A stretch of DNA of 64,000 nt from Ascidia mentula (taxonomy: Eukaryota > Chordata > Ascidiacea > Phlebobranchia > Ascidiidae), in NCBI GenBank assembly GCA_947561715.1, contig CANNZX010000068.1:1-64000 (forward strand). Direction: 5' to 3'. A program made the translations under genes and the position numbers. Within the stretch, counting starts at the first letter, position 1. Each line of letters starts with the position of its first letter. Under the pieces are notes generated by a model, which saw only the letters and a list, made by a program, of their open reading frames with translations, did not search any database and was not told the origin of the DNA. This document shows, piece after piece, positions 43,358 to 63,276 of this stretch.

Positions 43358-46018
43358 TTACTCTCTCGCAATCCCGTGTAAGTTTATGTGGTTTTTCAAT
43401 TTTGTTATGATTCGGTATAGTATTTTGTTGATTGTTTCATTTGTATCTTCAAAATATGTATTGTTATAATCTAACTTTTGTTTTTCCTTTATTATAGTTG
43501 TCTTGAAAAAGGCTTGGGCTTTTACACTTAAAATAGGTTCGTTTTCGTCAAAAATATTATACATAATTTCCTGTGGATCGAAGCGTGTTTTTATTCCGTA
43601 TTCTGTGATGATGTGTTTCTTTAACTTTAGAATTATGTTTTCTGTTGTTTGGCATTGTGTGAGGAGGTGCGTTATCTCATCGCTATTTGTTTTGCAAAAT
43701 TTGCAGAAGTTTAATCTTGCTCTACCGTTTTTTAGTTGGTACATATTGTTTTTTTGTTTAAATTTTCCCCATTTAAAACCATTGTGTGCTGTGAGGTATG
43801 CCTTTTCTCTTTCGTCGTTTGTAAATATTTGTTTGTGTTTTTTGTTTCTGTACAGTACGTTGATCCAATTGAAATTAATATTATCTGACGGGTTCGATAT
43901 TATTTGTTTTGCCTTTATGAGTTCGAAATAAAAGTGCCTCAGTTTTGCTTTTTTCCAGTTTATGTCGTTGTTTTGTTCATTTAGTGTTTGATAAGTGTTT
44001 ATGATTTTTCTCCATTCTTTATTTGGGTTCCATGCTTTTGGTGTCGCATTATTGTAGAAAGCTGATTTAATTTTTCTCATATGTATTCCTAGGTTGTATT
44101 GTCCCCAACTTTTCCAAATTTCGTCTATTGTATCGCTGTTTCGCATGTCTCGTAGTTTTTCCATATGAGTTGCTTGTATTTTGTTAGATATGTCTGGCAT
44201 TTTAATTCCGCCTTGTTTGTAATTTGCTATTAGTTTATTTCGTTTTATCGGTTCGATGGTTTTAGGGTACCACAGGAAGTTAAATAGCTGTGTATTTAAA
44301 GTTTTTATTATATTTTCTGTGGGTTCCGACGTTCGTGCAATAAACAGGATTTTCGGTATTATCAATGTGTTAATTATTGTTATTTTTCCAAAGATTGATA
44401 GGTTTCGTTTTTCGTGGCTACATATTATTCTTCGAGTGTGTTCAATTATCTTGTTCCAATTTAAGCTCATGTTATTTCCGTGTTGTTTGTATTGTATTCC
44501 CAGTATTTTAACCTCGGGTTTGTAGTAAAGAGGAAATTTTATTCCTATTTTACACTTCATTGCATTCGAAATACACAATATCTCAGTTTTCGACTGGTTA
44601 ATTTTTTGGCCCGAGGCCTTTTCAAATTTTTCGAGTATTTTGAAAATTTCGTTAATTGTCTCGATGTTTGAGACGAAAAAAGTTGTATCGTCTGCATATT
44701 GTTGGATTTTTAACATAATCTTCCGATATTTAAAGCCAGTTATTTCATTACACTTATTGATTTTTTGCGTCAGATTTTCATTTATAACACAGTATAAGAG
44801 CATGCTTAAACTACACCCTTGTCTTACTCCATTTTTAATTTCAATTTTTTCTGATAAGGCTCCGTTAATAATTATTTGGCTTGTTATATTCCTATATATG
44901 ATTTTTATCCATTTGATTGTGTCTTTGTTGATTTTTAGTTTTTCAAGTGTTTTATATAGGAAGTTGTGGTCGACAGTGTCAAATGCTTTTTCGATATCTG
45001 TTAAGAAAATCGCGAGTTCTTGATTATAGGTTCGGGCAATTTCTATCGCGGCGTTTATATTGTAGTGGATATGTTGGATCTGTCGTTTGTTCAATCCACA
45101 TTTCTGCTCGAGAGAGATTTTTTCGTTTAGTTCATGTTGTACCCGTTTTGCGATGCTTTTACTAATTATTTTGTAGTCTGCGTTTAGGAGCGAAATCGGT
45201 CTATAGTTTTTGATTTGTGTTTTATCTTTATTTTTTGGTATAAGTTTTATTATCGAGTTTTTCATGTCTGTGTCTAATTGTTCTCGCAAAAATATGTTTG
45301 TGACGTGTTCGTGAAAGTCTTGTTTTAAGCTGTGCCAGAAATGTTGGTAAAATTCCACCGGTAAACCATCAAGCCCCGGGGCTGCATTTTTGTTCATTTC
45401 TTTCATTGAGCTTTCTAGTTCTTTTTCACTCAGGTATGGGCTAAAGTCTTGTGTGTCTATTTCTTTTGTTTTCAGATCTTGTAAGAAGAAGTCTTGTTCT
45501 TTTTCGTCCGTTCTTTTTGCCCTTCCCCAGAGGTTGGTGTAAAAATTTGTTATCTCAGTAATTATTTCCTCTCTGTCCGTTGAGATGTTGCCCTTTATGT
45601 TTAGTGCACGAATTGCGTTATTTTCTTGTTTCTTATTTTCTATTTTGAAAAAGGCTTTATCCGGTTTCTCTTCTTTTGTTCTTTCTTTTATTCTGGCTCT
45701 AATTTTGGCACCAGCACATTTCTTTTGATCTGCGGTTTTTATTTTCTTCTTTACTTCGAGATATCGAAGGTTCAGTTCTAGGTTGTCTTTGTTTAGGTTT
45801 TCCATGAAGTTGTTCATTTCTTTTTGATTGTTCGCATGTTCTTCAAGTTCTTTTTCTTTCTTTTCTTTCGCATAAGCAATTGAGCTGTTTTTTATTTTCT
45901 TTTTCAGTTTTTGCCAGTATTCATCTGTATTTCCGAAATTATTTTTGTTTTCTTGGTGTTGGAGTATCACATTTTTTATTTTGGCCGTGTATCCTTCCTC
46001 ATTGAGGTGGCTAGTATT
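43358..46018 (-). CDS. LINE ORF2, 3' part: reverse transcriptase
   Basis: Reverse transcriptase and C-terminal domain of ORF2, for target-primed reverse transcription. Numbering ORF2 from the ATG at 56493 and leaving out the MULE, RT shows GLPVEFY near 485, D607 in LTDIEKAFD, RQGCSLS, and YADD at 707-710. A C-terminal C-x2-C-x8-H-x4-C cluster lies at 1038-1055, as in L1/Tx1 elements. A lysine- and glutamate-rich linker precedes RT. An open frame runs on upstream to 46132, but its first 38 codons are MULE terminal repeat and are not LINE. The 9-bp target duplication 46010-46018 encodes Asn-Thr-Ser here and again at the end of the endonuclease part, so the two halves are in the same frame. The ORF is otherwise uninterrupted; ORF2 would be 1,152 aa without the MULE. 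Confidence 0.92.
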   Translation of the reverse strand, partial: NTSHLNEEGYTAKIKNVILQHQENKNNFGNTDEYWQKLKKKIKNSSIAYAKEKKEKELEEHANNQKEMNNFMENLNKDNLELNLRYLEVKKKIKTADQKKCAGAKIRARIKERTKEEKPDKAFFKIENKKQENNAIRALNIKGNISTDREEIITEITNFYTNLWGRAKRTDEKEQDFFLQDLKTKEIDTQDFSPYLSEKELESSMKEMNKNAAPGLDGLPVEFYQHFWHSLKQDFHEHVTNIFLREQLDTDMKNSIIKLIPKNKDKTQIKNYRPISLLNADYKIISKSIAKRVQHELNEKISLEQKCGLNKRQIQHIHYNINAAIEIARTYNQELAIFLTDIEKAFDTVDHNFLYKTLEKLKINKDTIKWIKIIYRNITSQIIINGALSEKIEIKNGVRQGCSLSMLLYCVINENLTQKINKCNEITGFKYRKIMLKIQQYADDTTFFVSNIETINEIFKILEKFEKASGQKINQSKTEILCISNAMKCKIGIKFPLYYKPEVKILGIQYKQHGNNMSLNWNKIIEHTRRIICSHEKRNLSIFGKITIINTLIIPKILFIARTSEPTENIIKTLNTQLFNFLWYPKTIEPIKRNKLIANYKQGGIKMPDISNKIQATHMEKLRDMRNSDTIDEIWKSWGQYNLGIHMRKIKSAFYNNATPKAWNPNKEWRKIINTYQTLNEQNNDINWKKAKLRHFYFELIKAKQIISNPSDNINFNWINVLYRNKKHKQIFTNDEREKAYLTAHNGFKWGKFKQKNNMYQLKNGRARLNFCKFCKTNSDEITHLLTQCQTTENIILKLKKHIITEYGIKTRFDPQEIMYNIFDENEPILSVKAQAFFKTTIIKEKQKLDYNNTYFEDTNETINKILYRIITKLKNHINLHGIARE
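46010..46018. repeat. MULE target-site duplication, left
   Basis: gctagtatt, repeated at 55687-55695. In LINE ORF2 it encodes Asn-Thr-Ser on the minus strand. Confidence 0.95.
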
Positions 46019-46160
46019 GGTTATCACACTTACACCTCCTCCGAAAGTCAGACGCATAACTGACGCAAACCTTGTTTGTGCGGTCACAATAGGTGTTGTC
46101 ATGCTTCGGTTAGCATCGTGCGTCATTGTCATGCGTCAGTGCTTCCATGTGATTTCTATT
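46019..46160 (+). repeat. MULE terminal inverted repeat, left
   Basis: About 142 bp, matching the reverse complement of the right end with few mismatches. It has 13 extra bp, a local duplication around GCGTCATTGTCAT near 46118-46136. Confidence 0.9.
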
Positions 46161-46230
46161 TCGCGGAAAAACTGTGCACGTGGGAAGAGCAGAAGGCATG
46201 CTGTGCGACCCAACGGGTTCCTGTTTGTTT

Positions 46231-46290
46231 AACTGTTTGTTTAGATTCTTGTGCAGATTTAACTGTTTGTTCAGATTCTTGTGCAGATTT
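46231..46290 (+). repeat. 30-bp direct repeat, two copies
   Basis: Two adjacent 30-bp copies differing by one base, between the left terminal repeat and the transposase start. They could be a transposase-binding or promoter element; unproven. Confidence 0.75.
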
Positions 46291-46338
46291 AACAGATTTT
46301 GTACTAGAAACATGTTTTTTTGTGGGAAAAGTTTGAGT

Positions 46339-49300
46339 ATGTTGAAGGACATTATTGACGTTAGTAAGTCTCGGCGATTTAGACATTGCGTGCCAATACC
46401 GAGGCGATTACTAATTTCTGAAGGTGTTAGTGATACACGGTAGGTTGTACAGGTGTGCTGTAACTCCTATTTAAATGGTATAATGTTTCTTTAGAAGCTG
46501 TGATGGAGTATCAATTTCCGAGATTGATTTTACAAATTCAAATACTGTGGAAAAGGTTGGTTTATTTGAAAATTTAAATATTACCCATTTTTAAAAAGGA
46601 AACTTCATTGACTAAGTCCAAAATGATAGCTTGTTTCCCAAAAGAAAACTGCAGATAATAAATTGCTCACATTTTTGCTTTTCTTTGACAGTGGTATGAG
46701 TCCAATTATGATGCAAAAAATACATTACTCAATTTTGAAAAATCACTTCATCTAACCTTAAAGCCGTCTTCAATTAAATCACACGGTGAGTTAAATTCTA
46801 CTTTCTGTTTGAAACTCCACCTCACACTGTTTTTGTCAATGAGTTTCATTTTTAAAGATTCATGTAACAGCTCTGTGCACTGGAATGATGCTGGCATTCC
46901 ATATATTATTACCCAGTCCGAATGCTTTGAATCAATTTGGCATTTTAACAGGGGCAATATTTGTCAGTATGTGATAACTATCTGTGATGTTTTGGTTTTT
47001 CCAAAGTTTGAAAGCATGGTAATATATATGTATACATGCTGTCATTGGTTATCTACAGTTGCCAACAACTTTGTATAGAATAAGCATTCAAAGTATACCC
47101 TCGAAAAGGCAAGTAAAGAAATTAGAAAAAGCCTTGATGTCAAAAGTACAGGTGTTTCACAGGAAGCAAGATGTTTTTTGAACATTGTGAAGAACAAGTT
47201 CACACCAGACACTAATTTAAGTAAAATGGTGAGTAGATGGTTTAGCTTAACACAAAACATGGAGCATATTTACATATTTTAGCCAAATACATCGGAACCA
47301 GCACAGAAGAAAAATGAGCAAGATTTGCAGGTTGTTGGTGTTGACTAGTTCAGTTAATATGTCAAAAAATTTTCATGCTAAATTCAGCCAAATTTGTAGT
47401 GGGTATGTTCAATGGAACAAGCAAAGGATTTAGTTCAGAAATTTGAAATTTCTACAATGACTAAGTTCATTACATTGCGAAAGAGATCATTTGGTATGAA
47501 GATAGCAGTAAAGTATTTTTTCATTTAGTTTTCTTTTCAGAGCAGTAGGACAGTTTTCTGGTGCAAATTATTTTATAACCCTTGTTGTTGTATGTTTGCA
47601 GATATATCAAAAAGCCGTTTGAATTGGGACAAAAGCTCCTGCACCCCTTACATCATTTTACAAACTACGGTCTTGGAATGTCAGCATTCAAAGGATCGTA
47701 ACAAAATAAAAAACGAAAGACGTCATGCTGCAATTCCTATACAAGTATATATGTGACTTTATATTAAAAAAGGTTAAACAATGCTATCCCTTTTTAGTTA
47801 CAAGATCACCCAAATCCTTGCAGAAAGCATTTGTGTATTCAAGGAACAAAAAAAAAAAATTGCGAGGCGAAGATTGTAATTCAGAAAATTATTAAGTTCC
47901 CACAGTTTGAGGTTTTTGTTGACTGCTGGAAGTAAATTGCTTTATTTTATTGTTATTTTGACAACAAATGTTTAGTTGGTCTCAAAATGTGCATCCAAAC
48001 TGAAAAAGACAAGTGTTGTTATAAAAGATTTGCTGCAAAACAATGACAAGCACTTAATAAAGGAACAAACTGCAAGTGTTTGCTTCCCCAAGGAGGACGA
48101 CCATACAGGTCATGTTTTAGGGGAAGTAAGTTTTCTATGAAAAACAAGTTATTTTTCTGGAAATAAATCTTTTTTGTTAAGGCTGCAGGATTCCTTCAAC
48201 CTGTTGATCAAAGACTAATTGCCAGAATTGATCAATTGGTTACAGAAGGTGTGGGCAGTATTGAAGAAATTCTGAGAAGCCTAAAACATTATGTCACCCA
48301 TGAACTTTTCAAAAATGATACCCCACCATCTACTTCAAACAGGAGATTTTATCCAACGAAAAAGGACATTCAAAGTCATTATTACCGGGCATTTTGTAAA
48401 CACAGATTCGCAAAAATTGATCAAAGCAATGTCCAGGGGTTGGTGGATGAATGGGTGAAGGCAGGAGATGCTGATGACAACATATATTTCCGGCCGTATG
48501 CTGCAAACGTTGAACCTGAAGTAGTTGATGGAGAAACAGCACCAGTCATTCAATCCGAACAAACCATGCTGTTTATCCATCAGTTTGCCTGGCAGCGAAG
48601 ATTGCTTCTGCGTTACGGCCAAGACATTTGTCTGATGGATGCTACCTACAAGACATCCAAATATGCGCTTCCCCTGTTTTTTCTCTGTGTAAAGACAAAT
48701 GTTGGCTACCAAGTGGTGGCTAGCTTCATAACTCAGAATGAACGACAATTAGACATTGAAGAAGCACTGACCATATTAAAAGAATGGACTCCTGAATGGA
48801 ACCCATCATTTTTTATGGTCGACAAATGTGATGCAGAGATTCACGCCATTGAAAGTATTTTTGCAGGTACAAAGTGTGCATAATATAAACATGCCATATA
48901 TTTTGTTGCAATTTTTCTAGATGTCCGTGTCCTTATTTGCGATTTTCATCGCGAACAGGCATGGGAAAGATGGGTAAAAAAGTCTGAAAATCAAGTAGGC
49001 CCAGACAAGGATGAAGTTTTATCATTTATGAGAGGAATTGCTAATGCTGAATGTGAGGAAAGCTGCGACAGAGCATTACATCTATTTCAGTCCAGCTCTG
49101 TGTGGATAAACAATGTGAAACTGCAAAAATACTTCACAAATGTTTGGCTTAAGGAAAAAGAGGTTTTATAATTAAATATATGTATGTTCTTAGATTTTTG
49201 CAGGTAGTGCAATATTTTTTAGAGATGGATGTGGCTCTATCGAGCAGACCAGTTAAAGGTTTTGATTCGTACCAACAATGGTGTTGAAAGACAAAACCGA

Positions 49301-51266
49301 GTTTTGAAAGAATGTCATGTTCGATTCAGGACAGATAAATCATTATCTGGCTTAATCACAATCTTGCACAAAGAATTCCTTCCAAATGCATATGAGAAGT
49401 AAGTTTCCTACAACCAAATTTTGGTTACTTTCAAGTGGAAGTGGCAAGCGAAATCAATATAATTACATCATATAAAGGTACAAGCAAGAAAACATGAGAT
49501 CATCTGGAGATTACAGAAGTTACAACGCAGATGTTCCCAATTTTCTTCAAAATCGTCCAAGAAAATTGGTGAAACATTGCATCAAGCGTATTGGAGAATC
49601 TGCAAACATTCAGGCAAGTTTAATATGTAAAAAAAAAGGCCTGTTTACTGTAGTAAGCAGCTCAACTTCTGAAATATACTCTGTAAAATTTGGTAACGAT
49701 AGGGATTTTCCCAAATGCACATGTCATGACTTTTTGCGAAATTTTTTACCATGCAAGCATATGTTTGCAATATTTGACAAGTATGCAGATGTGGGATGGC
49801 ATAGTCTGCCAGAATGGTACAGCAACTCTGTTTACATGGTTTTGGATCCTGCTGTTGTAAACAAACTTTCAGTCGAATCGGTTTCAAATTCTGTGACTGA
49901 GAATGAAGAAATCAATTTTTCTTGTGCCCACCAATCAATTCTCAACAAACCTGAAAACATTGCAAGTGACAAAACCAGCGGCCGTAAACAAAGCCACCAA
50001 CAGTTTATTGATTTGGTGAAACATTTGATGGACCTCTCCTATGATGTCCGCTCCAAGCAGGTTTTGGATGAAGGCATTTCTGATGTCAATGCAGTTATTG
50101 CCAAGTTTTCTGAAGCATGTTCATATGATTCCGGGTTTAGAATTACTCAAACCCCTGAGCTGAAGTCTTTGAGGAGAAAACGAAAGCCTACATTTCCTGA
50201 AAAGGGTTTTCATGATGAGTTGCCTCGCAAGCGACCAAAGCCAAACCCATTTTCTTCACGAGTTGGGCAGTTTGCCAACCTTATGCGACCACTGCATCAA
50301 GTAACCACCTTGTTTCCTTTGGTCAAGAAAAATGTAAAACAAAGGACACCACAGAAGGCTTGTCACAAAAATGAATCTTCTAATGATGATTTTATGGAAA
50401 GAGTAGAGAACACAAAGTCATTGGTGACACAAAGCATCACAGCTCATATTAAGGGCTTTAAACCTTCCAATAAAATTTTAAAAAATGGATCTCATTCAAT
50501 TTCTTTGTTGGAGTTGAAATCTCTGGATGATGCATTGCTGCCAGCTGAAGTATGTGAACTTAAAAGGCATGACAGCAGATTCAATGTCGGTTGGCTTTAT
50601 GATGAAGTTATCAACAGCTACCTATGGCAATTAACTAACAAGCACCAACACATCATATATGTTTGTTCTACTGTGGCTCAAACATTACAGAGGAAAGCTT
50701 CAATCAAAAAAGTTTGGGAAGGGGTTAATTTAAAGGTTAAACAAAAGATTTTTATACCATGGAATCCTTCCGGGTTTCATTGGGTTTTACTTGTCATTGA
50801 CATCTCCAACCGCAAAATGCTTTATATAGACCCTTTGACAATGCCTGATGTAGAAACTGACAACAATGTCCGGACTGCACAAGATATGGTGAATTATCTT
50901 TTAACAACCAAATTTGGTTGGAATATTACCACTATAGAAACTCCACAGAGAACACAACAGTTGGATGGATCAAGCTGTGGAGTTATGACTTGTATGTATG
51001 CCAAATGGCTAGCAACAGACAAAAGTCTTCAGCAGAATGTTTGCACATATAATTATCGAACCGAAATCTTCAAAGTAATTGCTGGCAAATGCCTCGAAGG
51101 CACAAATGATAAAGACACCTGTAAAGCATGTGAAGCTAAAGAGGACGAACCCATGAACACTCTTTGGGTTGAGTGCACTCGATGTGGTCAATGGTTTCAC
51201 ATGAAATGTGTGGGTTTATCACAGAAGGAAGCAGAAGAGGATAAACGATTTGCATGCACATTGTAA
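46339..51266 (+). CDS. MULE transposase with SWIM, Ulp1 protease and PHD-like domains (13 exons)
   Basis: Exon model from GT-AG sites and frame: 46339-46439, 46495-46555, 46692-47018, 47079-47228, 47283-47330, 47400-47493, 47602-47744, 47798-47911, 47976-48125, 48182-48866, 48921-49162, 49223-49398, 49478-51266; total 1,359 aa with every junction in phase. A C/H cluster near 300-340 resembles MULE N-terminal zinc domains. The DDE transposase has D549 (LMDATYKT), D610 (MVDKCDAE), the C-x2-H at 631-634 and E727 (NNGVERQN). The SWIM finger is C844, C846, C856, H858. The C48/Ulp1 protease has H1198, D1215, Q1258, C1264 (SSCGV). A PHD-like finger starts at C1312 but the chain stops at CTL, so the eighth ligand is absent. 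Donors after exons 2, 5, 8 and 11 are weak. The frame is open upstream to ATGs at 46312 and 46198, so the start is uncertain. Confidence 0.85.
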
Positions 51267-51376
51267 ATTGACATGACTGAAATTTTGCCAATTAAGAATT
51301 TTATTATCATTGTACAAAAGCAATTTGCACTAATTATTGTATATTTTATCGGGTTTTATTGTGTGACAAAAAAACT

Positions 51377-51422
51377 GACCGATCAGGCTCTTTCTGAGAG
51401 GTGTAACACTTCTGCGGGGTGA
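51377..51422 (+). repeat. 46-bp direct repeat, copy 1
   Basis: Starts GACCGATCAGGCTC and contains GGTGTAACACTT; repeated 112 bp further on with four differences. Confidence 0.85.
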
Positions 51423-51488
51423 ATTTCATACCGTACCATTTGGGCTTTGACCTAAACGGTGTAACACTCAATGAGTGATGGTAAACTT

Positions 51489-51534
51489 GACCAATCAGGC
51501 TCTTTCTGAGAGGTGTAACACTTCCGCAGAGTGA
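51489..51534 (+). repeat. 46-bp direct repeat, copy 2
   Basis: Starts GACCAATCAGGCTC. Between the two copies a shorter GGTGTAACACT also occurs, near 51459. Confidence 0.85.
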
Positions 51535-52035
51535 TATTTCTTCCCAGTTTCATATGGCTATTGGCGAGGCGTCTGGGTTACCAAAACGGTCAGCGACCAC
51601 ATAAGAAAGGCCTCTGGGGTGTGGTTGGAACTTTCTTGTTTGACTATAAAGTAAAGTATATCTCTCCAGTTCCTTTATCAATGCCCATGCCATTTTATTT
51701 CTTGTGTGTATTGTTCATCTACGTAGTTGTCTGTATGACTCGTGCTGGTCGTTTGAAACTATTTATAGTGACCACATTTTGTTTCTCTTGTTCTTTTACA
51801 CTTTCGTCCATTATAAACCGTCACATTTCATGTAATGATATTTATGATTTTTGGTCGCCGCTACTTTTTATGCAGTTATACATGTTTTAGTTAACGTAGA
51901 CCTAAAAAACTTTGTATATATGTTTGTTGTCGATGTACCTTTAGTTTTACACAAAGTTGTTATGACCGTATCATATGCACTTTAATTTTGACTTTTTTAA
52001 CTTGTTAAAACAGTCACAAATAAAACGAAATGAAT

Positions 52036-52041
52036 TTTATT
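52036..52041 (-). terminator. Putative polyadenylation signal of the minus-strand MULE gene
   Basis: AATAAA on the minus strand, about 68 nt beyond the proposed stop codon at 52109-52111. In AT-rich DNA the match alone is weak, but the position is right. Confidence 0.45.
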
Positions 52042-52108
52042 TTGCAGACCTGGCAAGAAAAAAACATTGTTTAAAAAAACGGTTTTGTGAAAACTCATTC
52101 CACTCACG

Positions 52109-55100
52109 TTAAAGACTTCTCGCCTGCAAAACACGTACATAAGTTTAACCACCACAATTGTCAAAAAAAGGGGTCATTACTTACACGTTTTGGCCTGGGA
52201 CCCGAAGGGCTCCTTGACTGTGAAGATATGCAAAAATATAACAAATTTAGAGTTTCCAATGGAAATAATTTAATGTAGTTTAATGACACTTACTCTAACA
52301 GACGGGCTTCTCTGTTGTGAAGATATGCAAAATAAAACAGATTTAGAGTTTCCAATGGAAATAATTTAATGTAGTTTAATGACACTTACTCTAACAGACG
52401 GGCTCCTAGACTGTGAAGATATGCAAAAATAAAACAGATTTAGAGTTTCCAATGGAAATAATTTAATATAGTTTAATGACACTTACTCTAACAGACGGGC
52501 TTCTCTGTTGTGAAGATATGAAAAAATAAAACAAATTTAGAGTTTCCAATGGAAATAATTTAATGTAGTTTAATGACACTTACTCTAACAGACGGGCTTC
52601 TCTGTTGTGAAGATATGCAAAATAAAACAGATTTAGAGTTTCCAATGGAAATAATTTAATGTAGTTTAATGACACTTACTCTAACAGACGGGCTCCTAGA
52701 CTGTGAAGATATGCAAAAATAAAACAGATTTAGAGTTTCCAATGGAAATAATTTAATATAGTTTAATGACACTTACTCTAACAGACGGGCTTCTCTGTTG
52801 TGAAGATATGCAAAAATAAAACAAATTTAGAGTTTCCAATGGAAATAATTTAATGTAGTTTAATGACACTTACTCTAACAGACGGGCTTCTCTGTTGTGA
52901 AGATATGCAAAATAAAACAGATTTAGAGTTTCCAATGGAAATAATTTAATGTAGTTTAATGCCACTTACTCTAACAGACGGGCTCCTAGACTGTGAAGAT
53001 ATGCAAAAATAAAACAGATTTAGAGTTTCCAATGGAAATAATTTAATATAGTTTAATGACACTTACTCTAACAGACGGGCTTCTCTGTTGTGAAGATATG
53101 CAAAAATAAAACAAATTTAGAGTTTCCAATGGAAATAATTTAATGTAGTTTAATGACACTTACTCTAACAGACGGGCTTCTCTGTTGTGAAGATATGCAA
53201 AATAAAACAGATTTAGAGTTTCCAATGGAAATAATTTAATGTAGTTTAATGCCACTTACTCTAACAGACGGGCTCCTAGACTGTGAAGATATGCAAAAAT
53301 AAAACAGATTTAGAGTTTCCAATGGAAATAATTTAATATAGTTTAATGACACTTACTCTAACAGACGGGCTTCTCTGTTGTGAAGATATGAAAAAATAAA
53401 ACAAATTTAGAGTTTCCAATGGAAATAATTTAATGTAGTTTAATGACACTTACTCTAACAGACGGGCTTCTCTGTTGTGAAGATATGCAAAATAAAACAG
53501 ATTTAGAGTTTCCAATGGAAATAATTTAATGTAGTTTAATGACACTTACTCTAACAGACGGGCTCCTAGACTGTGAAGATATGCAAAAATAAAACAGATT
53601 TAGAGTTTCCAATGGAAATAATTTAATATAGTTTAATGACACTTACTCTAACAGACGGGCTTCTCTGTTGTTAAGATATGCAAAAATAAAACAAATTTAG
53701 AGTTTCCAATAGAAATAATTTAATGTAGTTTAATGACACTTACTCTAACAGACGGGCTTCTCTGTTGTGAAGATATGCAAAAATAAAACAAATTTAGAGT
53801 TTCCAATGGAAATAATTTAATGTAGTTTAATGACACTTACTCTAACAGACGGGCTTCTCTGTTGTGAAGATATGCAAAAATAAAACAGATTTAGAGTTTC
53901 CAATGGAAATAATTGAATGTAGTTTAATGACACTTACTCTAACAGACGGGCTCCTAGACTGTGAAGATATGCAAAAATAAAACAGATTTAGAGTTTCCAA
54001 TGGAAATAATTTGATGTAGTTTAATGACACTTACTCTAACAGACGGGCTTCTCTGTTGTGAAGATATGCAAAAATAAAACAAATTTAGAGTTTCCAATGG
54101 AAATAATTTAATGTAGTTTAATGACACTTACTCTAACAGACGGGCTTCTCTGTTGTGAAGATATGCAAAAATAAAACAGATTTAGAATTTCCAATAGAAA
54201 TAATTTAATGTAGTTTAATGATACTTACTCTAACAGATGGACTTCTCTGCTGTGAAGATATGCAAAAATAAAACAAATTTAGAGTTTCAAATGGAAATAA
54301 GAAATGTGTTCAATAAATTAAAAAAAATAAATACTAATGGGTTGTAAAAGATCTTAAGGATATCAATACTTACACGTAGTTGGGAGCTTCGACCCTAAAA
54401 CATTTTTGTGATAAGTATGACAAAACACACACGAAAGCTAAATATTGCCACTTACTTGTTGAGTAAAGCCTCTGCCCCTGCCCTGCAACACAAAACCTTA
54501 AGCAACTACAAATACTTCAACATGACTTACATTACAACATAATTGCAACTTACCCTTCCTCTCATGTTTGCGTTCTATAAAATTATTGCTAACATCATGT
54601 AATAGCCGATTGTATAAAGTAGTTTGAATGAGGAATGGTGCAACAAGTATATTTAAATATAATACTTCTTTTATTTTTAAGCTACACTATGTTTTAATTT
54701 GTTCCTGTGGAAATGTTTCCAAATAAGAATCCAGCAATAAAAATTTAATTTACCCTTTGAAAAAAATCCTTCTTATTCAGCCATCTGCAAAATCAATATT
54801 TTTTTTATGCACTGCACGTTTTGTAGCAGTAATATGTGAATAATGCATTATTTACTTACATAGCCTCTGGCCTTATCTTCCCTTCTCTGCACAAGAAACA
54901 ACATTAATTATCATATTCATTGTAACTAGGCAAACTTATATACTGCAATTTAGGAAATTGCTACTGCAGGGTCCCAATTTCCCTTTATGGCACAAAAAAC
55001 ACTACATACCTCTTTAACTCCTCGAAGGAGTGCCTGGGCAGCCAACTATAATAATAGGCAGTGGGTTAATCAAATCTAAAATTTAAGACAAAAAGAACTT

Positions 55101-55569
55101 ACGTTGAAAGTCCTTCATTCTGCTGTAACGTTGAAAGCAGTCACATGTAAACAAGCAAACAGTTACAAATAAAAACTATACAATATTACATATGTTACCA
55201 ATGGTGTAGGCGTGGGGCCTACTTCCACCCCGTGGAAAATGAACTGGGAGTTTGAAATGTTTATTTCCATTTCTGAAAAATATATAAATATATAAATTTG
55301 TGAGGTTCGTCACTAGCACATTAAGTAAAAGCGAATAAACAATTCCTGAAAAAACAAGCACGTAAGCAAAAAGGGGCCCTCTGCTTTACAATCCTACACG
55401 TGTACACTACATAGCGCATAGAAATGTTGGCTGCGGCAATTTTACAAAACTAACCCTTTTAAATATCCCTTTTGAATTTATTGTTAACAACTTTTCAGTA
55501 AATAAGAAAAATTTATTCCATACTACAAACAAATAATACCCAACTTACCGCTTTGAAAATAGAGATCAT
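52109..55569 (-). CDS. Second MULE gene: RS-repeat protein from a micro-exon array (31 exons, inferred)
   Basis: Minus-strand exons inferred from AG/GT(A/G) sites: 55549-55569 (ATG), 55103-55122, 55010-55045, 54860-54886, 54754-54784, 54554-54574, 54456-54482, 54374-54394; then 21 repeat exons between 54246 and 52294; then 52185-52217 and 52109-52123 with a TAA stop. Total 648 nt, 215 aa, in frame throughout. The N-terminal part is mixed and basic, then Gly-Arg rich (GRGRGF). The repeat exons encode RSPSVR (18 nt, 15 copies) or SRSPSVR (21 nt, 6 copies), all phase 0, giving an RS-domain-like tract of 132 residues. The penultimate exon continues the motif (SRSPSGPRPKR). Donors are mostly GTAAGT and repeat-array introns are about 76-79 bp. 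No family is recognised. Position and direction recall mudrB of maize MuDR; no homology is claimed. Confidence 0.6.
52185..54300 (-). repeat. 96/97-bp minisatellite with 290-bp higher-order period
   Basis: About 21 tandem units. Each contains, on the minus strand, CAACAG or CACAG, then an 18- or 21-nt block, then GTAAGT. Units of the 21-nt type recur at exactly 290 bp (52397, 52687, 52977, 53267, 53557), so triplets of units were amplified together; the right part from about 53.6 kb is irregular and the outermost units are more diverged. See the minus-strand gene for the exon reading. Confidence 0.95.
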
Positions 55570-55686
55570 ATGGAAACACTGACGCACGACGCTAACCGAC
55601 GCATGACAACACCCATTGTGACCGCACAAACAAGGTTTGCGTCAGTAATGCGTCTGACTTTCGGAGGAGGTGTAAGTGTGATAACC
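55556..55686 (-). repeat. MULE terminal inverted repeat, right
   Basis: About 131 bp. The inner edge overlaps the putative first exon of the minus-strand gene, so the repeat probably serves as its promoter. Confidence 0.9.
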
Positions 55687-55695
55687 GCTAGTATT
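55687..55695. repeat. MULE target-site duplication, right
   Basis: Exact second copy of gctagtatt, directly next to the terminal GGTTATCAC complement. Confidence 0.95.
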
Positions 55696-56493
55696 CAGTT
55701 TCCAGTGGGGGTTTCCCCAAATATAGTTTTCCGTAATTTTAATATATATACTAGGAGCAAGGTTGTGATCAGAGAAGTGTATTGGTATATGTTTGAAAGC
55801 TTTTATTTTACTTAAAATCGGTGTGTTGCAGTATATTCTGTCAATTCTAGTAGCAGATTTAGCGGTGATATGCGTAAAAGCTTTTTTGTTGGGAAAGAGA
55901 AATCGAAAAGAATCTTCTAAACTATAGGTTTCCCTCATGTCCATCCAAGAGTTTTGGTCTGGACGTGTTTTACTTTGCGTCGCAATTGTATCTATTTGGT
56001 TATAAGTCATATTAAAATCTCCTCCTATCACTATTTTTTCATTTGGTTTCGTTATCTGCAGGTCTTTTGCAAGTATATGTAAAAGTTGAGTTCGGTGCGT
56101 TACTGCCAGTTGGCTACTTCCGGATTTAAGGTATACATTGTAAATAGTGTATTTCTCTACGTTCTCTTCATTTGTTAATTCTAAGATTATTTTATTTATT
56201 CGATTTTCTGCAACTATCTCGTGTTTTATTTCATCTTGTGGTATGTTTTTGGTTATGATGGCCGTTCCTGCGTGAATGCGTTTCCCTATTTTTGGGTCCG
56301 CGATGGCATTATGATAGATACAAAATTTTTGTTTATTTGCCCATTTTTCTAATTTAGCAAACTTATATTGGTGTGTTTCCTGTATTAGTACAATTGCCGC
56401 GTTTTCGTTTTGTGTTATTTTTTTTACGTTTTCTATATTTCTTTCGAGCCCGTTGATATTTATAGAGATGATTGTCAGAAATTCTGGAGTCAT
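55687..56493 (-). CDS. LINE ORF2, 5' part: APE-type endonuclease
   Basis: 269 residues before the MULE insertion, starting at an ATG 86 nt after the ORF1 stop. The apurinic-endonuclease-like fold that nicks target DNA is shown by SININGL near 11-16, QET with E39, GGDFN with D159 and N161, RIDRI with R216 and D218, and SDH at 241-243. The typical GNPHWKLN marks the end of the domain. All catalytic residues are present. The reading frame continues 14 codons into the MULE terminal repeat before a stop. Such a protein would have endonuclease but no RT. Confidence 0.92.
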
Positions 56494-56579
56494 ATCGGGT
56501 GGAGTTTAGTCATTACAGGTTTGGTTTTTTAGCTATTTAAAGAAAGTAGAAATTGTGAAAGTAAAAATAATTTGAGCGA

Positions 56580-57860
56580 CTATCTTCGTTTGTCTTTTTT
56601 CCTTCTGTTCTTTGCCGAGCCCGAACTGGAGGTCGACGATGTGAGGGTTTGGTCTTTCTTTTTCCTTTTCTTTTCTTGATCCGTATAACCAAAGTTGAAT
56701 TTATTTTCTATAATTTTTGCTTGTTTTTCTACAGCTTTTTTTGTAAGTAGTGGAGAACGGGTTGGGGTCATTGGATTTTCTTTGTTGAACTGTATCCTAC
56801 AAGGGGATAGGATGACCTGGGGCTGGAGATTTTGGGCGTTTTTGGGGGTTTCATAGGTCGTGTTTTCCGAATCTGTATTAATTTGTAGCTCTCCCGAGTG
56901 GGTTGATTTTGCCGGTTCTTCTATTTTCTCATCTTCTTCTATTCTTTCTTGATCTGCGTTTTCTTTCTCTTCATCAGTTCCATTTTCTTCTTCTTCCTCT
57001 AGTTGTGATGGTAGTTTTTGTGGTCGGTTTAATTTTTCCATCTTGTTTTCGTGGATATGAATTTGGTTTAGTATTGGGGATAAATCTTGGACCTTGGTTG
57101 TTATTCCTTTCCCTATGGGGGTCGATTTTTTGGGAAAGGGTGGGAATACGTCATCGTACGAAGGTTTTGTCTGGTTGTAAGTTTTACTGATCTTGGAAGC
57201 CTCTGGGCACCATTTGCCCCTATGTCCCCTTTCGCCGCATATGGGGCAGATATTCTTTTTTGGGCATTGTGACGCCCAATGGCCGCGTTGGTTGCACATG
57301 GAGCAAGCAGGGCCAAAGGATTCGCCTGGTTTAGCAATTTGGACGTTATGTCCAAATATTTTCGTGATGCACTTGACGTTTGCTTCTTGGAAGTCTTCCA
57401 GTATCAAATGGACATACCCGTTGTATAGGTTTTTGTGGTTTTTGTGAGTCAGAAACCTGTGTTCTATATATGTTCCCCAGTTAAGATCGTTTACCACTTT
57501 TTCGAAGTGGGATTTCTCCATTTCTATAGGTACTGGGTTTAAAGTTAGTTGCGTTCTGGGTTTTGGTGGGTTGGAGGCCTGGATGATTATCGCATAATTT
57601 TCTGTGACGTCGAAAGGGGTTGGCTCCTTTAGGTCTTTCAAAATGTTTTTCCTGGTCTCTTTAGCAAAGTCTAGGTTGGAATAAGTTATCTTGAAAGTTG
57701 ACTGTGTTTTATTTATGGTTGTGACACCCATGAGCCCGTCCTTATATTTTTCCAGATAACATTCAAAAAGGCTGATGAAGGTTTCTAATGGGTAGTGGTC
57801 ATAGTTAAGTATCTTCAGATAGACGGACCTTTCCTCAACAAGATAGTTCGTTTGCAACAT
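56580..57860 (-). CDS. LINE ORF1, RNA-binding protein
   Basis: 426 aa from an ATG at 57860. In this class ORF1 binds the element RNA and forms the RNP with ORF2. An RRM-like region is suggested around 110-175 (YNGYVHLILEDF). Two CCHC knuckles follow, C186-C199 and C205-C218, both C-x2-C-x4-H-x4-C. The C-terminal half is low-complexity: an acidic Glu-rich tract near 285-315 and a Lys/Arg- and Ser-rich end. The frame is intact. Confidence 0.88.
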   Translation of the reverse strand: MLQTNYLVEERSVYLKILNYDHYPLETFISLFECYLEKYKDGLMGVTTINKTQSTFKITYSNLDFAKETRKNILKDLKEPTPFDVTENYAIIIQASNPPKPRTQLTLNPVPIEMEKSHFEKVVNDLNWGTYIEHRFLTHKNHKNLYNGYVHLILEDFQEANVKCITKIFGHNVQIAKPGESFGPACSMCNQRGHWASQCPKKNICPICGERGHRGKWCPEASKISKTYNQTKPSYDDVFPPFPKKSTPIGKGITTKVQDLSPILNQIHIHENKMEKLNRPQKLPSQLEEEEENGTDEEKENADQERIEEDEKIEEPAKSTHSGELQINTDSENTTYETPKNAQNLQPQVILSPCRIQFNKENPMTPTRSPLLTKKAVEKQAKIIENKFNFGYTDQEKKRKKKDQTLTSSTSSSGSAKNRRKKDKRR

Positions 57861-58405
57861 ATTTGCGTTTGTTGTGTGGTTTTTGCTCCGATTAAAGAGA
57901 TCGGGGAAATATCAAAGAGTTACGGTACAATTTATACAGGAGTTAACGACTTTAATTGTTAATTGCTTCCCTGCGGGTGCTAGGCCGGCGTTCTTAATTG
58001 CTCTTAATGAGCAGGAGCGCCGGAGGCACCTATACAGTGGAGGCAATCAGAGCACAATTGTTGTGAGGGAGATCGGCGCTCTCAGGAGTTTGCAGCTCTT
58101 TGCTGCGTTCCTGCGGTCGCGAAATCTCTCACTACACAAAGTAATAGTTCCACGCGGAGGAGTGCCAAAAAAAGGCACGTAACCTCTGTGAGGAGCTCTG
58201 CAGTTTAACAAGGAAAAGAGGTCTAACCTCTGTCTTAAGGCTGTGTTAGACTGACGTACACTTGCACAAAAAGTTGTTAGGTAATCTCAACTAGGATTTA
58301 CTGCGCGCGAAAGGTGGATAACACGAAACAATGGTGCACATGCAAACACAAACGACACGCATGCAAGGTTTTGATACTGCCTGAAATTGACCGCGAGTGG
58401 AACCA
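57861..58405 (-). other. LINE 5' UTR / promoter region
   Basis: 545 bp between the U1 junction and the ORF1 start. It holds short inverted repeats such as GTGCC-T7-GGCAC on the minus strand near 58158-58174 and no long ORF on the element strand. It probably carries an internal promoter, though being inside U1 it also lies downstream of the U1 promoter. Confidence 0.6.
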
Positions 58406-58430
58406 GTGAAGGCCCCCGTCAGGTAAGTAT
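58406..58430 (-). pseudogene. U1 5' fragment (25 nt) at the LINE junction
   Basis: U1 nt 1-25, including the 5' splice-site complement, with an intact U1 promoter upstream. Together with 42939-43069 this accounts for 156 of 164 nt. Confidence 0.95.
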
Positions 58431-58701
58431 GCTTTGCACAGCTTCTTGAGAGGTAGCATTTTTGTCGTCCGTCCTTGTGTTTGCCGCATTGTGCATTTCA
58501 CGGCTTGTTTTATCTGGTCTCCGACAAGCACAACAACCAAATGTGCCGTTAAATTAATTGCTCTCCCGTCCTCCCTCTCTACCTCTCTTTCCTTGGCGTG
58601 TGCATACAGACGACACACACGCACTCATGGGATGCACCGCTGTTTCGTGCAATTGTTTTGCGAATGATTAACAGATGGTTATTCCCACATGTGTGGGAAT
58701 G

Positions 58702-58893
58702 TGGGCCGTGCCTGGAGGTAGTGCAATACCAGGACAACCCGTGGGCAGGTCGAAGCAAGCTCCGGCACCGTGCCCCCTGTCCAAAAATCAGGTTAATACA
58801 AAGACATGCAAGCGAATCGCTTGCGTCCCAGGTATTAAACTGAGAAGAACAGATACTACACTTGATCTTAGCTCTAAAGAGCCGAGAAGCGAT
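58702..58893 (-). ncRNA. U2 snRNA
   Basis: Array copy as 931-1122; first U2 right of the LINE. Confidence 0.95.
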
Positions 58894-59181
58894 GCCGCAA
58901 CATCCACTGAGTCCGCAACGTCCGGAAGAGTCCGTCTCGCATTTGCTGCCAAATTTTATTCCGGTGAAAAATGAAAAAAAAAAAAAAATTTCCTGGTTTT
59001 TTTCCTACCGTTTTTGGCAGGCCATTCAAATTAGTTTGTTCACCACATGACGTCACAAACGGACCCATGACCCACCTCCCAACCCCCGACACGACTCCTC
59101 CTGACCGTAACAGGCGAATCCCCCCCGTAGAAACTTCGTTTCTACCTTACGTTTTGCTCTACATCAGAGGATTAGTAAAAG

Positions 59182-59227
59182 ACGGGGATAGCGCGAACGC
59201 AGTCCCCACTAGCAGAAATTGTACGGC

Positions 59228-59262
<35 letters not shown>

Positions 59263-59345
59263 GCTAAGCCTAAGTGCAATGGCTAAGCCTCGCCCTGGGC
59301 CCACCGCCGGCCTGATCACGGTGAAGGCCCCCGTCAGGTAAGTAT
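59182..59345 (-). ncRNA. U1 snRNA
   Basis: Array copy as 496-659. Confidence 0.95.
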
Positions 59346-59616
59346 GCTTTGCACAGCTTCTTGAGAGGTAGCATTTTTGTCGTCCGTCCTTGTGTTTGCC
59401 GCATTGTGCATTTCACGGCTTGTTTTATCTGGTCTCCGACAAGCACAACAACCAAATGTGCCGTTAAATTAATTGCTCTCCCGTCCTCCCTCTCTACCTC
59501 TCTTTCCTTGGCGTGTGCATACAGACGACACACACGCACTCATGGGATGCACCGCTGTTTCGTGCAATTGTTTTGCGAATGATTAACAGATGGTTATTCC
59601 CACATGTGTGGGAATG

Positions 59617-59808
59617 TGGGCCGTGCCTGGAGGTAGTGCAATACCAGGACAACCCGTGGGCAGGTCGAAGCAAGCTCCGGCACCGTGCCCCCTGTCCAAA
59701 AATCAGGTTAATACAAAGACATGCAAGCGAATCGCTTGCGTCCCAGGTATTAAACTGAGAAGAACAGATACTACACTTGATCTTAGCTCTAAAGAGCCGA
59801 GAAGCGAT
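59617..59808 (-). ncRNA. U2 snRNA
   Basis: Array copy as 931-1122. Confidence 0.95.
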
Positions 59809-60096
59809 GCCGCAACATCCACTGAGTCCGCAACGTCCGGAAGAGTCCGTCTCGCATTTGCTGCCAAATTTTATTCCGGTGAAAAATGAAAAAAAAAAAA
59901 AAATTTCCTGGTTTTTTTCCTACCGTTTTTGGCAGGCCATTCAAATTAGTTTGTTCACCACATGACGTCACAAACGGACCCATGACCCACCTCCCAACCC
60001 CCGACACGACTCCTCCTGACCGTAACAGGCGAATCCCCCCCGTAGAAACTTCGTTTCTACCTTACGTTTTGCTCTACATCAGAGGATTAGTAAAAG

Positions 60097-60142
60097 ACGG
60101 GGATAGCGCGAACGCAGTCCCCACTAGCAGAAATTGTACGGC

Positions 60143-60177
<35 letters not shown>

Positions 60178-60260
60178 GCTAAGCCTAAGTGCAATGGCTA
60201 AGCCTCGCCCTGGGCCCACCGCCGGCCTGATCACGGTGAAGGCCCCCGTCAGGTAAGTAT
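60097..60260 (-). ncRNA. U1 snRNA
   Basis: Array copy as 496-659. Confidence 0.95.
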
Positions 60261-60531
60261 GCTTTGCACAGCTTCTTGAGAGGTAGCATTTTTGTCGTCC
60301 GTCCTTGTGTTTGCCGCATTGTGCATTTCACGGCTTGTTTTATCTGGTCTCCGACAAGCACAACAACCAAATGTGCCGTTAAATTAATTGCTCTCCCGTC
60401 CTCCCTCTCTACCTCTCTTTCCTTGGCGTGTGCATACAGACGACACACACGCACTCATGGGATGCACCGCTGTTTCGTGCAATTGTTTTGCGAATGATTA
60501 ACAGATGGTTATTCCCACATGTGTGGGAATG

Positions 60532-60723
60532 TGGGCCGTGCCTGGAGGTAGTGCAATACCAGGACAACCCGTGGGCAGGTCGAAGCAAGCTCCGGCACCG
60601 TGCCCCCTGTCCAAAAATCAGGTTAATACAAAGACATGCAAGCGAATCGCTTGCGTCCCAGGTATTAAACTGAGAAGAACAGATACTACACTTGATCTTA
60701 GCTCTAAAGAGCCGAGAAGCGAT
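60532..60723 (-). ncRNA. U2 snRNA
   Basis: Array copy as 931-1122. Confidence 0.95.
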
Positions 60724-61011
60724 GCCGCAACATCCACTGAGTCCGCAACGTCCGGAAGAGTCCGTCTCGCATTTGCTGCCAAATTTTATTCCGGTGAAAA
60801 ATGAAAAAAAAAAAAAAATTTCCTGGTTTTTTTCCTACCGTTTTTGGCAGGCCATTCAAATTAGTTTGTTCACCACATGACGTCACAAACGGACCCATGA
60901 CCCACCTCCCAACCCCCGACACGACTCCTCCTGACCGTAACAGGCGAATCCCCCCCGTAGAAACTTCGTTTCTACCTTACGTTTTGCTCTACATCAGAGG
61001 ATTAGTAAAAG

Positions 61012-61057
61012 ACGGGGATAGCGCGAACGCAGTCCCCACTAGCAGAAATTGTACGGC

Positions 61058-61092
<35 letters not shown>

Positions 61093-61175
61093 GCTAAGCC
61101 TAAGTGCAATGGCTAAGCCTCGCCCTGGGCCCACCGCCGGCCTGATCACGGTGAAGGCCCCCGTCAGGTAAGTAT
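61012..61175 (-). ncRNA. U1 snRNA
   Basis: Array copy as 496-659. Confidence 0.95.
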
Positions 61176-61446
61176 GCTTTGCACAGCTTCTTGAGAGGTA
61201 GCATTTTTGTCGTCCGTCCTTGTGTTTGCCGCATTGTGCATTTCACGGCTTGTTTTATCTGGTCTCCGACAAGCACAACAACCAAATGTGCCGTTAAATT
61301 AATTGCTCTCCCGTCCTCCCTCTCTACCTCTCTTTCCTTGGCGTGTGCATACAGACGACACACACGCACTCATGGGATGCACCGCTGTTTCGTGCAATTG
61401 TTTTGCGAATGATTAACAGATGGTTATTCCCACATGTGTGGGAATG

Positions 61447-61638
61447 TGGGCCGTGCCTGGAGGTAGTGCAATACCAGGACAACCCGTGGGCAGGTCGAAG
61501 CAAGCTCCGGCACCGTGCCCCCTGTCCAAAAATCAGGTTAATACAAAGACATGCAAGCGAATCGCTTGCGTCCCAGGTATTAAACTGAGAAGAACAGATA
61601 CTACACTTGATCTTAGCTCTAAAGAGCCGAGAAGCGAT
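61447..61638 (-). ncRNA. U2 snRNA
   Basis: Array copy as 931-1122. Confidence 0.95.
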
Positions 61639-61926
61639 GCCGCAACATCCACTGAGTCCGCAACGTCCGGAAGAGTCCGTCTCGCATTTGCTGCCAAATT
61701 TTATTCCGGTGAAAAATGAAAAAAAAAAAAAAATTTCCTGGTTTTTTTCCTACCGTTTTTGGCAGGCCATTCAAATTAGTTTGTTCACCACATGACGTCA
61801 CAAACGGACCCATGACCCACCTCCCAACCCCCGACACGACTCCTCCTGACCGTAACAGGCGAATCCCCCCCGTAGAAACTTCGTTTCTACCTTACGTTTT
61901 GCTCTACATCAGAGGATTAGTAAAAG

Positions 61927-61972
61927 ACGGGGATAGCGCGAACGCAGTCCCCACTAGCAGAAATTGTACGGC

Positions 61973-62007
<35 letters not shown>

Positions 62008-62090
62008 GCTAAGCCTAAGTGCAATGGCTAAGCCTCGCCCTGGGCCCACCGCCGGCCTGATCACGGTGAAGGCCCCCGTCAGGTAAGTAT
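61927..62090 (-). ncRNA. U1 snRNA
   Basis: Array copy as 496-659. Confidence 0.95.
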
Positions 62091-62361
62091 GCTTTGCACA
62101 GCTTCTTGAGAGGTAGCATTTTTGTCGTCCGTCCTTGTGTTTGCCGCATTGTGCATTTCACGGCTTGTTTTATCTGGTCTCCGACAAGCACAACAACCAA
62201 ATGTGCCGTTAAATTAATTGCTCTCCCGTCCTCCCTCTCTACCTCTCTTTCCTTGGCGTGTGCATACAGACGACACACACGCACTCATGGGATGCACCGC
62301 TGTTTCGTGCAATTGTTTTGCGAATGATTAACAGATGGTTATTCCCACATGTGTGGGAATG

Positions 62362-62553
62362 TGGGCCGTGCCTGGAGGTAGTGCAATACCAGGACAACCC
62401 GTGGGCAGGTCGAAGCAAGCTCCGGCACCGTGCCCCCTGTCCAAAAATCAGGTTAATACAAAGACATGCAAGCGAATCGCTTGCGTCCCAGGTATTAAAC
62501 TGAGAAGAACAGATACTACACTTGATCTTAGCTCTAAAGAGCCGAGAAGCGAT
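62362..62553 (-). ncRNA. U2 snRNA
   Basis: Array copy as 931-1122. Confidence 0.95.
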
Positions 62554-62841
62554 GCCGCAACATCCACTGAGTCCGCAACGTCCGGAAGAGTCCGTCTCGC
62601 ATTTGCTGCCAAATTTTATTCCGGTGAAAAATGAAAAAAAAAAAAAAATTTCCTGGTTTTTTTCCTACCGTTTTTGGCAGGCCATTCAAATTAGTTTGTT
62701 CACCACATGACGTCACAAACGGACCCATGACCCACCTCCCAACCCCCGACACGACTCCTCCTGACCGTAACAGGCGAATCCCCCCCGTAGAAACTTCGTT
62801 TCTACCTTACGTTTTGCTCTACATCAGAGGATTAGTAAAAG

Positions 62842-62887
62842 ACGGGGATAGCGCGAACGCAGTCCCCACTAGCAGAAATTGTACGGC

Positions 62888-62922
<35 letters not shown>

Positions 62923-63005
62923 GCTAAGCCTAAGTGCAATGGCTAAGCCTCGCCCTGGGCCCACCGCCGGCCTGATCACGGTGAAGGCCCCCGTCAGGTA
63001 AGTAT
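62842..63005 (-). ncRNA. U1 snRNA
   Basis: Array copy as 496-659. Confidence 0.95.
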
Positions 63006-63276
63006 GCTTTGCACAGCTTCTTGAGAGGTAGCATTTTTGTCGTCCGTCCTTGTGTTTGCCGCATTGTGCATTTCACGGCTTGTTTTATCTGGTCTCCGAC
63101 AAGCACAACAACCAAATGTGCCGTTAAATTAATTGCTCTCCCGTCCTCCCTCTCTACCTCTCTTTCCTTGGCGTGTGCATACAGACGACACACACGCACT
63201 CATGGGATGCACCGCTGTTTCGTGCAATTGTTTTGCGAATGATTAACAGATGGTTATTCCCACATGTGTGGGAATG

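Follow-up and report, generated by a model that had tools for sequence, protein, structure and literature searches.

The 64,000-bp stretch of Ascidia mentula DNA analysed here (assembly GCA_947561715.1, contig CANNZX010000068.1; hereafter the window) contains a DNA transposon of the Mutator-like element (MULE) type, 9,668 bp long (46019..55686). Besides its transposase gene (gene 1), this element carries on the minus strand a predicted second gene, gene 2. Gene 2 is probably a real protein-coding gene (we put this at roughly 0.7), the tail of which would be encoded by a minisatellite composed of intron plus 3n-exon units and could vary in length without frameshift. The first-pass annotation, made from the letters alone, had placed an Arg-Ser (RS)-like repeat within a MULE, a placement supported by a PF10551 match and by the 9-bp target duplication GCTAGTATT, which flanks the element in two exact copies.

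A minisatellite of predicted exon-intron units

The array (52294..54246, minus strand) consists of 21 phase-0 blocks of 18 or 21 nt separated by introns of 76-79 nt. Tandem Repeats Finder delimits the minisatellite at 52219-54300, with a period of 97, 21.5 copies and 93% matches, and also reports a higher-order unit of 290 bp (7.2 copies, 97% matches). Fifteen of the blocks are 18 nt long and encode RSPSVR while six are 21 nt long and encode SRSPSVR. They are followed by a 33-nt exon at the array end (52185..52217, minus strand; SRSPSGPRPKR). When this exon is included, the length is a multiple of three and GTAAGT directly follows the block in 22/22 cases; a CAG acceptor and phase 0 are found in all 21 micro-exons. 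These features agree with the first-pass description of 21 units of 96/97 bp. Two types of unit can be distinguished at the acceptor, CACAACAG before AGAAGC and CACAG before TCTAGGAGC, and both keep the frame. Save for one base, the CACAG type is the same as the sequence that opens the 33-nt exon (TCAAGGAGC preceded by CACAG) and may be a recombinant of the body unit and the end unit.

The frequency of comparable blocks was estimated in 20,000 dinucleotide shuffles of the unit, using as definition an open 3n block of 9-60 nt with YAG and at least 7/12 pyrimidines upstream and GTAAGT downstream. Such a block was present in 119 shuffled units on one strand and in 149 on either strand. The cut-off of 7 pyrimidines was chosen post hoc, as the real unit scores 7 and fails a stricter cut-off of 8; with the loosest setting tried (GTRAG donor, 6/12 pyrimidines) the numbers rise to 489 (one strand) or 758 (either strand) of 20,000. 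RNA structure was considered as a reason for the repeat and rejected: folding of the array RNA is unremarkable (z 0.46, 66/100 shuffles folding equally well or better) and there is therefore no evident structural reason for the blocks.

Structure of the predicted gene 2

Nine exon-like blocks can be read upstream of the array, all on the minus strand. Exon 1 (55549..55569, 21 nt) has a GTAAGT donor and an ATG at 55569; it would correspond to 5' untranslated sequence, or to the coding start if joined straight to 55122. Exon 2 (55199..55272, 74 nt, MEINISNSQFIFHGVEVGPTPTPL) is preceded by a CAG acceptor and followed by the donor GTAACA. Its ATG, at 55270, lies in the context GAAATGG, its end is in phase 0, and its changes relative to C52 and C2, two other copies of the element, are mostly synonymous. 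Exons 3 (55103..55122), 4 (55010..55045) and 5 (54860..54886) are followed by exon 6 (54754..54784), which is 31 nt long, as it is in C2 and in the relics L016 and L013, and is absent from C52. Exon 7 (54554..54574; NANMRGR) is identical in the six sequences covering it and exon 9 (54374..54394; GRSSQLR) in the five covering it; between them lies exon 8 (54456..54482; GRGRGFTQQ). Beyond the array and the 33-nt exon, the last coding exon (52109..52123, minus strand) encodes ARSL and a stop, and is identical in all four array-bearing copies. As annotated in the first pass, its TAA, which ends at 52109, is followed by an AATAAA polyadenylation signal (52036..52041, minus strand).

With exon 2, the predicted gene comprises a 5' exon and 31 coding exons and yields a protein of 232 aa. 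If exon 1 is joined to exon 2, the ATG at 55569 is out of frame and the reading stops. If exon 1 (55569-55549) is instead joined to 55122, skipping exon 2, the reading is in frame and gives 215 aa. Alternative first exons are possible because this second join is also in frame; the use of exon 2 is favoured by its synonymous signature. The first-pass model, which started at the ATG of the terminal repeat and gave 215 aa, is retained here for its in-frame exon-like blocks and revised for its start and length, since it missed the exon at 55272-55199. In ascidians, spliced-leader trans-splicing can also substitute for the 5' sequence that precedes such an acceptor.

Of the 31 predicted introns, 28 begin with GTAAGT, the others with GTAACA, GTATGT and GTAAAT, and the acceptors are CAG in 28 cases and TAG in 3. 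The introns range from 57 to 276 nt. The predicted protein of 232 aa is basic and includes 58 Ser and 56 Arg. It begins with an N-terminal part of about 62 aa, continues with a short RGRGRGF stretch and an Arg-Ser tail made up of 21 repeats (RSPSVR or SRSPSVR), and terminates in the basic sequence PRPKRARSL. These last three features suggest that the protein would be nuclear and would bind nucleic acids in the manner of RS/RGG-type proteins or contact splicing factors. As read from the sequence, gene 2 is convergent to the transposase gene: gene 1 is on the plus strand whereas gene 2 starts at the right terminal repeat and runs on the minus strand from 55569/55270.

Array length in other copies of the element

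The A. mentula genome searched amounts to 195.8 Mb in 79 contigs. Two DNA searches listed 26 and 29 matches, only some of which were inspected individually. Exon 2, the array and the last exon are present in four copies, that of the window and those called C70, C52 and C2; five relics (L013, L016, L017, L018 and L020) retain parts of exons 2-9. The four arrays contain 21 (window), 18 (C70), 4 (C52) and 6 (C2) blocks, a change in copy number without loss of frame that the first-pass annotation had predicted. It had also proposed to inspect other copies for block lengths and splice sites: no block with a length other than 3n is found in the four arrays. In the window copy, C70 and C52, every block (21, 18 and 4, respectively) has intact splice sites. 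These are less well preserved elsewhere, as C2 has one of its 6 donors broken (GTTAAGT) and two blocks ending in TGA, and among the array pieces found in relics, L016 includes one block with both splice sites whereas L017 includes two, the second without donor.

Comparison of the window copy with C70 outside the array shows 4 mismatches and 1 gap in 6,727 bp of single-copy sequence. Both are flanked by a perfect 9-bp target duplication of their own, that of C70 being GTTTGAAAC (identified by eye from the flanks). Their arrays differ by at least 3 units while the remainder has hardly mutated. From the sum of the block lengths, the predicted Arg-Ser tail (array plus 33-nt exon) would vary from 36 residues in C52 to 143 in the window copy.

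Short derivatives of the element are uninformative for the array: in 9/9 chosen right ends the sequence passes directly from intron 1 into the last intron, and exon 2 through the 33-nt exon are missing. In these derivatives (from C1, C71, C72, C73 and C52), the beginning of the last coding exon survives in 7/9, with altered stop bases in 6 of those 7.

Coding signature of gene 2

Variable columns were counted from intron 1 to the first micro-exon in an alignment of the window copy, C52, C2 and the five relics, using columns covered by at least 3 sequences. Third codon positions are variable in 25/91 cases against 21/182 for first and second positions (p=0.0017) and 108/1,027 for intron columns (third positions against introns, p=2e-5). 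The same count without the window copy gives 22/85, 20/169 and 93/874, respectively. Examples of synonymous change include a Ser of exon 2 encoded by TCA, TCC, TCG or AGC and the GRGRG of exon 8, which is held through AGG/AGA swaps.

Nonsynonymous (dN) and synonymous (dS) divergence from the window copy were calculated on exon strings transcribed from the alignments, the last exon of C52 and C2 being taken from the window, to which it is identical. The dN/dS values are 0.005/0.080 for C52, 0.015/0.333 for L017 (its first block being compared with a 21-nt window block) and 0.114/0.391 for L016 (over only 15 codons of exon 2). For C2 they are 0.022/0.162 when codons hit by deletions are excluded and 0.019/0.135 when the deleted bases of exon 8 are counted as unchanged. 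dN is lower than dS in all five pairs computed, and also in the repeated C2 pair. Within the array, the 39 micro-exons of the window copy and C70 vary at 3/6 third positions and at 0/12 others (p=0.025); the search pattern used to collect these exons restricts the letters able to vary, yet recovered all 21, 18 and 4 blocks. We consider the coding evidence read from these alignments to be good for gene 2 and its frame and moderate for the array exons.

In separate pairwise comparisons of gene 2 (54229-55548), third positions diverge more than introns in 7/7 cases, with p<0.05 in 6/7, the comparisons not being independent.

Proposed mechanism and alternative explanations

If the array is spliced into the messenger RNA, each 97-bp unit would supply one intron and one exon of 3n nt. 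Unequal exchange or slippage would then add or remove whole exon-intron units, including blocks of three (290 bp), and turnover of the satellite would lengthen or shorten the Arg-Ser tail with the frame safe. Skipping of any subset of array exons would likewise be frame-neutral. Gene 2 may have an accessory role in transposition, and its convergent layout recalls that of mudrA and mudrB.

Several observations weigh against this interpretation. First and second codon positions (21/182) vary as much as the introns (108/1,027; p=0.70). The signal is therefore a third-position excess and not a deficit at first and second positions, which simple neutrality of introns and silent sites would not predict. 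The excess may reflect constraint on the gene 2 introns, as is possible for introns beside very short exons, or else rapid evolution of silent sites, for instance as a means of evading small RNAs directed against the spliced message. Moreover, the sequences compared share the window lineage and hence are not independent. The codon evidence is weaker within the array, where 15/75 intron columns are variable against 0/12 first and second micro-exon positions (p=0.12). C2 has exon deletions and two larger insertions in gene 2 and, as C52 is without exon 6, gene 2 is damaged in 2 of the 4 array-bearing copies. The first 85 residues of the predicted protein yielded no homologue at E<=1 among 13 candidates from a large protein collection (proteins of about 72-229 aa), nor at E<=10 among 25 candidates of about 128-406 aa, and there was no significant match for gene 2 in Pfam (best E 2.3) or PDB (best E 1.8). 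Finally, we could not recognise gene 2 in any of three related elements from this genome: L064 (79% identity), complete from terminal repeat to terminal repeat; L065 (76%), as far as its right satellite arm extends in L074; and L066 (79%), whose right terminal repeat was not located, together with 6 kb beyond (L073). MULEs at large therefore do not need gene 2. Two of these considerations slightly reduce our confidence in the interpretation and in its extension to other MULE minisatellites: first and second positions are no less variable than introns, and the sister element L065 has 57-bp satellite arms devoid of donors (no GTRAGT on either strand in 627 and 2,943 bases).

Gene 2 might be real and the minisatellite simply a large intron, exon 9 being joined to the 33-nt exon and the micro-exons mostly skipped as too short. 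Both flanking exons are in phase 0 and the frame works without the array, the codon evidence within the array is modest, and the commoner acceptor has just 7 pyrimidines in 12. Against it, 3n length, CAG and GTAAGT are retained in every block of the window copy (21), C70 (18) and C52 (4), variation of the array exons in the window copy and C70 is confined to third positions (3/6 against 0/12), and stops and lost donors appear only in the damaged C2 and the relic L017. We regard it as unlikely. A purely neutral minisatellite, with exon-like blocks that are a coincidence or a relic without coding function, seems very improbable. It would be in line with the donor-free arms of the related element and with the 3'-end minisatellites of Rehavkus and some Phantom elements, for which no coding role is mentioned in the available text of PMC6446971. 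On the other hand, a block of this kind is present in few of the shuffled units, the array continues in frame into flanking exons that show codon periodicity and dN < dS, and folding of its RNA gives no structural reason for the blocks.

Another explanation concerns the origin of gene 2, which could be a fragment of a host gene captured in the manner of Pack-MULEs and carried as a passenger. This is compatible with splicing of the array. In its favour, MULEs are reported to capture host genes (PMC6446971, available portion) and gene 2 went unrecognised in the three related elements. Against this, no host parent was found: the N-terminal 85 residues hit the genome at four places at E<=10, and these are the four MULE copies. 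The other genomic DNA matches inspected, a subset of those listed, are MULE copies, derivatives or fragments. The low dN/dS across copies, moreover, suggests selection while the element was mobile, and we give a captured passenger a small share of the probability only.

Should the array be spliced as predicted, a minisatellite, which is usually a liability in coding DNA, would act as a safe length dial whose turnover is unable to shift the frame. A mobile element would then be known to harbour an array of this kind, and MULE minisatellites that are listed without explanation would gain a testable meaning. It would also provide a compact natural substrate for work on the recognition of very short exons, with 18-nt exons, 76-79-nt introns, near-identical units and several array lengths in one genome.

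Comparison with known systems

By the traits listed below, the element resembles one group of animal MULEs, Rehavkus, and partly a second, Phantom. Rehavkus elements (Dupeyron et al. 2019, PMC6446971) have a 9-bp target duplication, terminal repeats within 26-400 bp, a PHD finger and a minisatellite before the 3' terminal repeat. The MULE of the window shares with them the 9-bp duplication, the PHD finger, the terminal repeats and a minisatellite (52219-54300) between the transposase gene and the right terminal repeat. It differs by its second gene and tunicate host, as Rehavkus is listed with one open reading frame (ORF) and arthropod or annelid hosts; in the available text of this source the minisatellite is not described as exons. 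Phantom elements include Tunicata among their hosts, SWIM domains in some members, an 8-10-bp duplication and, in aphids, a minisatellite after the transposase ORF (PMC6446971). Host, SWIM finger, duplication size and minisatellite are similar here; no micro-exon array is described for Phantom in the same portion of text. It is conceivable that the 3' minisatellites of Rehavkus and some Phantom elements are, at least in part, exon-intron arrays of a second gene tuning an Arg-Ser tail, that this tail may promote the splicing of its own micro-exons and that the protein may assist its element in the way mudrB does for MuDR. We hold this extension to be quite improbable, and the absence of GTRAGT donors from the 57-bp arms of one related element argues against its generality.

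MuDR of maize carries mudrA and mudrB, its terminal repeats serve as promoters of both genes and mudrB is apparently required for integration (PMC6446971, PMC2725143, PMC8224964). These sources report mudrB as restricted to Zea and, in their available parts, do not mention tandem micro-exons. The likeness to MuDR is one of layout, a predicted convergent second gene starting from the other terminal repeat. A long Arg-Ser tail is shared with SR/RS-domain proteins; a Pfam search of a shortened 131-aa construct retaining the whole N-terminal part gave no significant match, to an RNA-recognition motif or otherwise.

In a wider sense, the exon sizes and phase 0 of the predicted gene model agree with those of micro-exon genes. 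Davis et al. reportedly described in 1988 tandemly repeated 81-base exons in a schistosome gene. The micro-exon genes of Schistosoma are host genes for secreted proteins, with exons of 3-81 bp and introns of up to 5 kb (PMC10526429, available part). Very short exons, which are predicted ones in gene 2, and tandem repeats of exons, in at least one schistosome gene, occur in both systems, whereas the schistosome genes belong to the host and are not described as a minisatellite in a DNA transposon in that part. The spider flagelliform silk gene also has a repeat unit composed of an exon and an intron, with far larger exons. Exon and intron there form a tandem unit and are homogenised jointly, as proposed here, although the product is a host structural protein. 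Concerted evolution with similar introns within one gene has been reported for a silk gene (PMC3522626, available part).

The statement of the first-pass annotation that no such case has been described stands insofar as no paper was found joining repeated short exons, homogenised exon-intron units and animal MULE minisatellites, in a literature coverage that leaves out most subscription journals. It needs to be qualified, since Rehavkus and Phantom minisatellites (PMC6446971, available text) and short or tandem schistosome exons were already known. Short repeated exons in schistosomes, exon-intron homogenisation in silk and MULE minisatellites being known separately, what appears to be new is their combination as read in this element.

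The transposon and its transposase gene

The target duplication GCTAGTATT occupies 46010..46018 on the left and 55687..55695 on the right (both plus strand). The terminal inverted repeats are about 111 bp long, the left one (46019..46129, plus strand) beginning with GGTTATCACACTTACACC and the right one lying at 55576..55686 (minus strand); they are 93% complementary over 118 nt including 7 nt of flank per side. A transposase domain, a target duplication of the 8-11-bp class (9 bp here) and terminal inverted repeats together assign the element to the MULE superfamily.

Gene 1 includes two open frames on the plus strand. The first (48167..48883) encodes a MULE / ZSWIM RNase-H-like domain (PF21056, PF15299, PF10551), the MULE transposase domain PF10551 scoring 36.8 bits for a cut-off of 27.6. 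The second (49476..51266) combines a SWIM domain (PF04434, 20.0 bits, cut-off 19.6), a Ulp1/C48 peptidase (PF02902, 49.8) and a PHD finger (PF00628, 29.6, cut-off 24). It has 13 related proteins in the large protein collection, including Ciona intestinalis at 30-38% identity. Unlike in gene 2, third positions of gene 1 diverge to a similar degree as the surrounding sequence: between the window copy and L064 they differ at 211/832 (25%) against 532/2,569 (21%) of bases outside both frames, which possibly include further exons.

Short imperfect repeats are present at 51363-51546, just past the transposase gene; in L065 (5469-5838) they have grown into a 112-bp minisatellite. L065 is also the related MULE (76%) located between inverted 57-bp satellite arrays resembling foldback arms (L065 1-627 and 6959-9901; L074 2-736). 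Also present in L074, close to the relic L017, is a decayed relative that is 90-94% identical to the window and retains one fragment of the array. In L066, around 1300-1450 on the minus strand, where gene 2 would be expected, a stretch belonging to the element or to its flank resembles by eye a C2H2 zinc finger.

Genomic setting

The contig of the window is an unplaced piece of 66.7 kb. Positions 1-43070 and 58406-64000 of the window form a tandem array of 915-bp units carrying minus-strand U1 and U2 small nuclear RNA (snRNA) genes, with 104 U1 or U2 matches in this repeat. Irregular units are observed near 14808-15244, 25528-25730 and 34867-35303. The array is interrupted by a long interspersed nuclear element (LINE) with zinc knuckle, endonuclease and reverse transcriptase frames, which is itself interrupted by the MULE (46019-55686), resulting in a nested arrangement of MULE in LINE in snRNA array.

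The LINE (43070-58405) has a 3' poly(A) end (poly-T on the plus strand) that joins one identical U1 position, GCCCACCGCCGGC(C), in 6/6 loci (L067-L072) fetched from the 18 matches listed. One of these six is the window itself and three are relatives of about 69-74%. This suggests that the LINE targets a single site within U1 snRNA genes. Among DNA transposons, Keno (U2) and Dada (U1) are named as targeting snRNA genes in the available part of PMC3706591. Matches to the LINE sit on C52 (9.38-9.70 Mb), C55 and C59.

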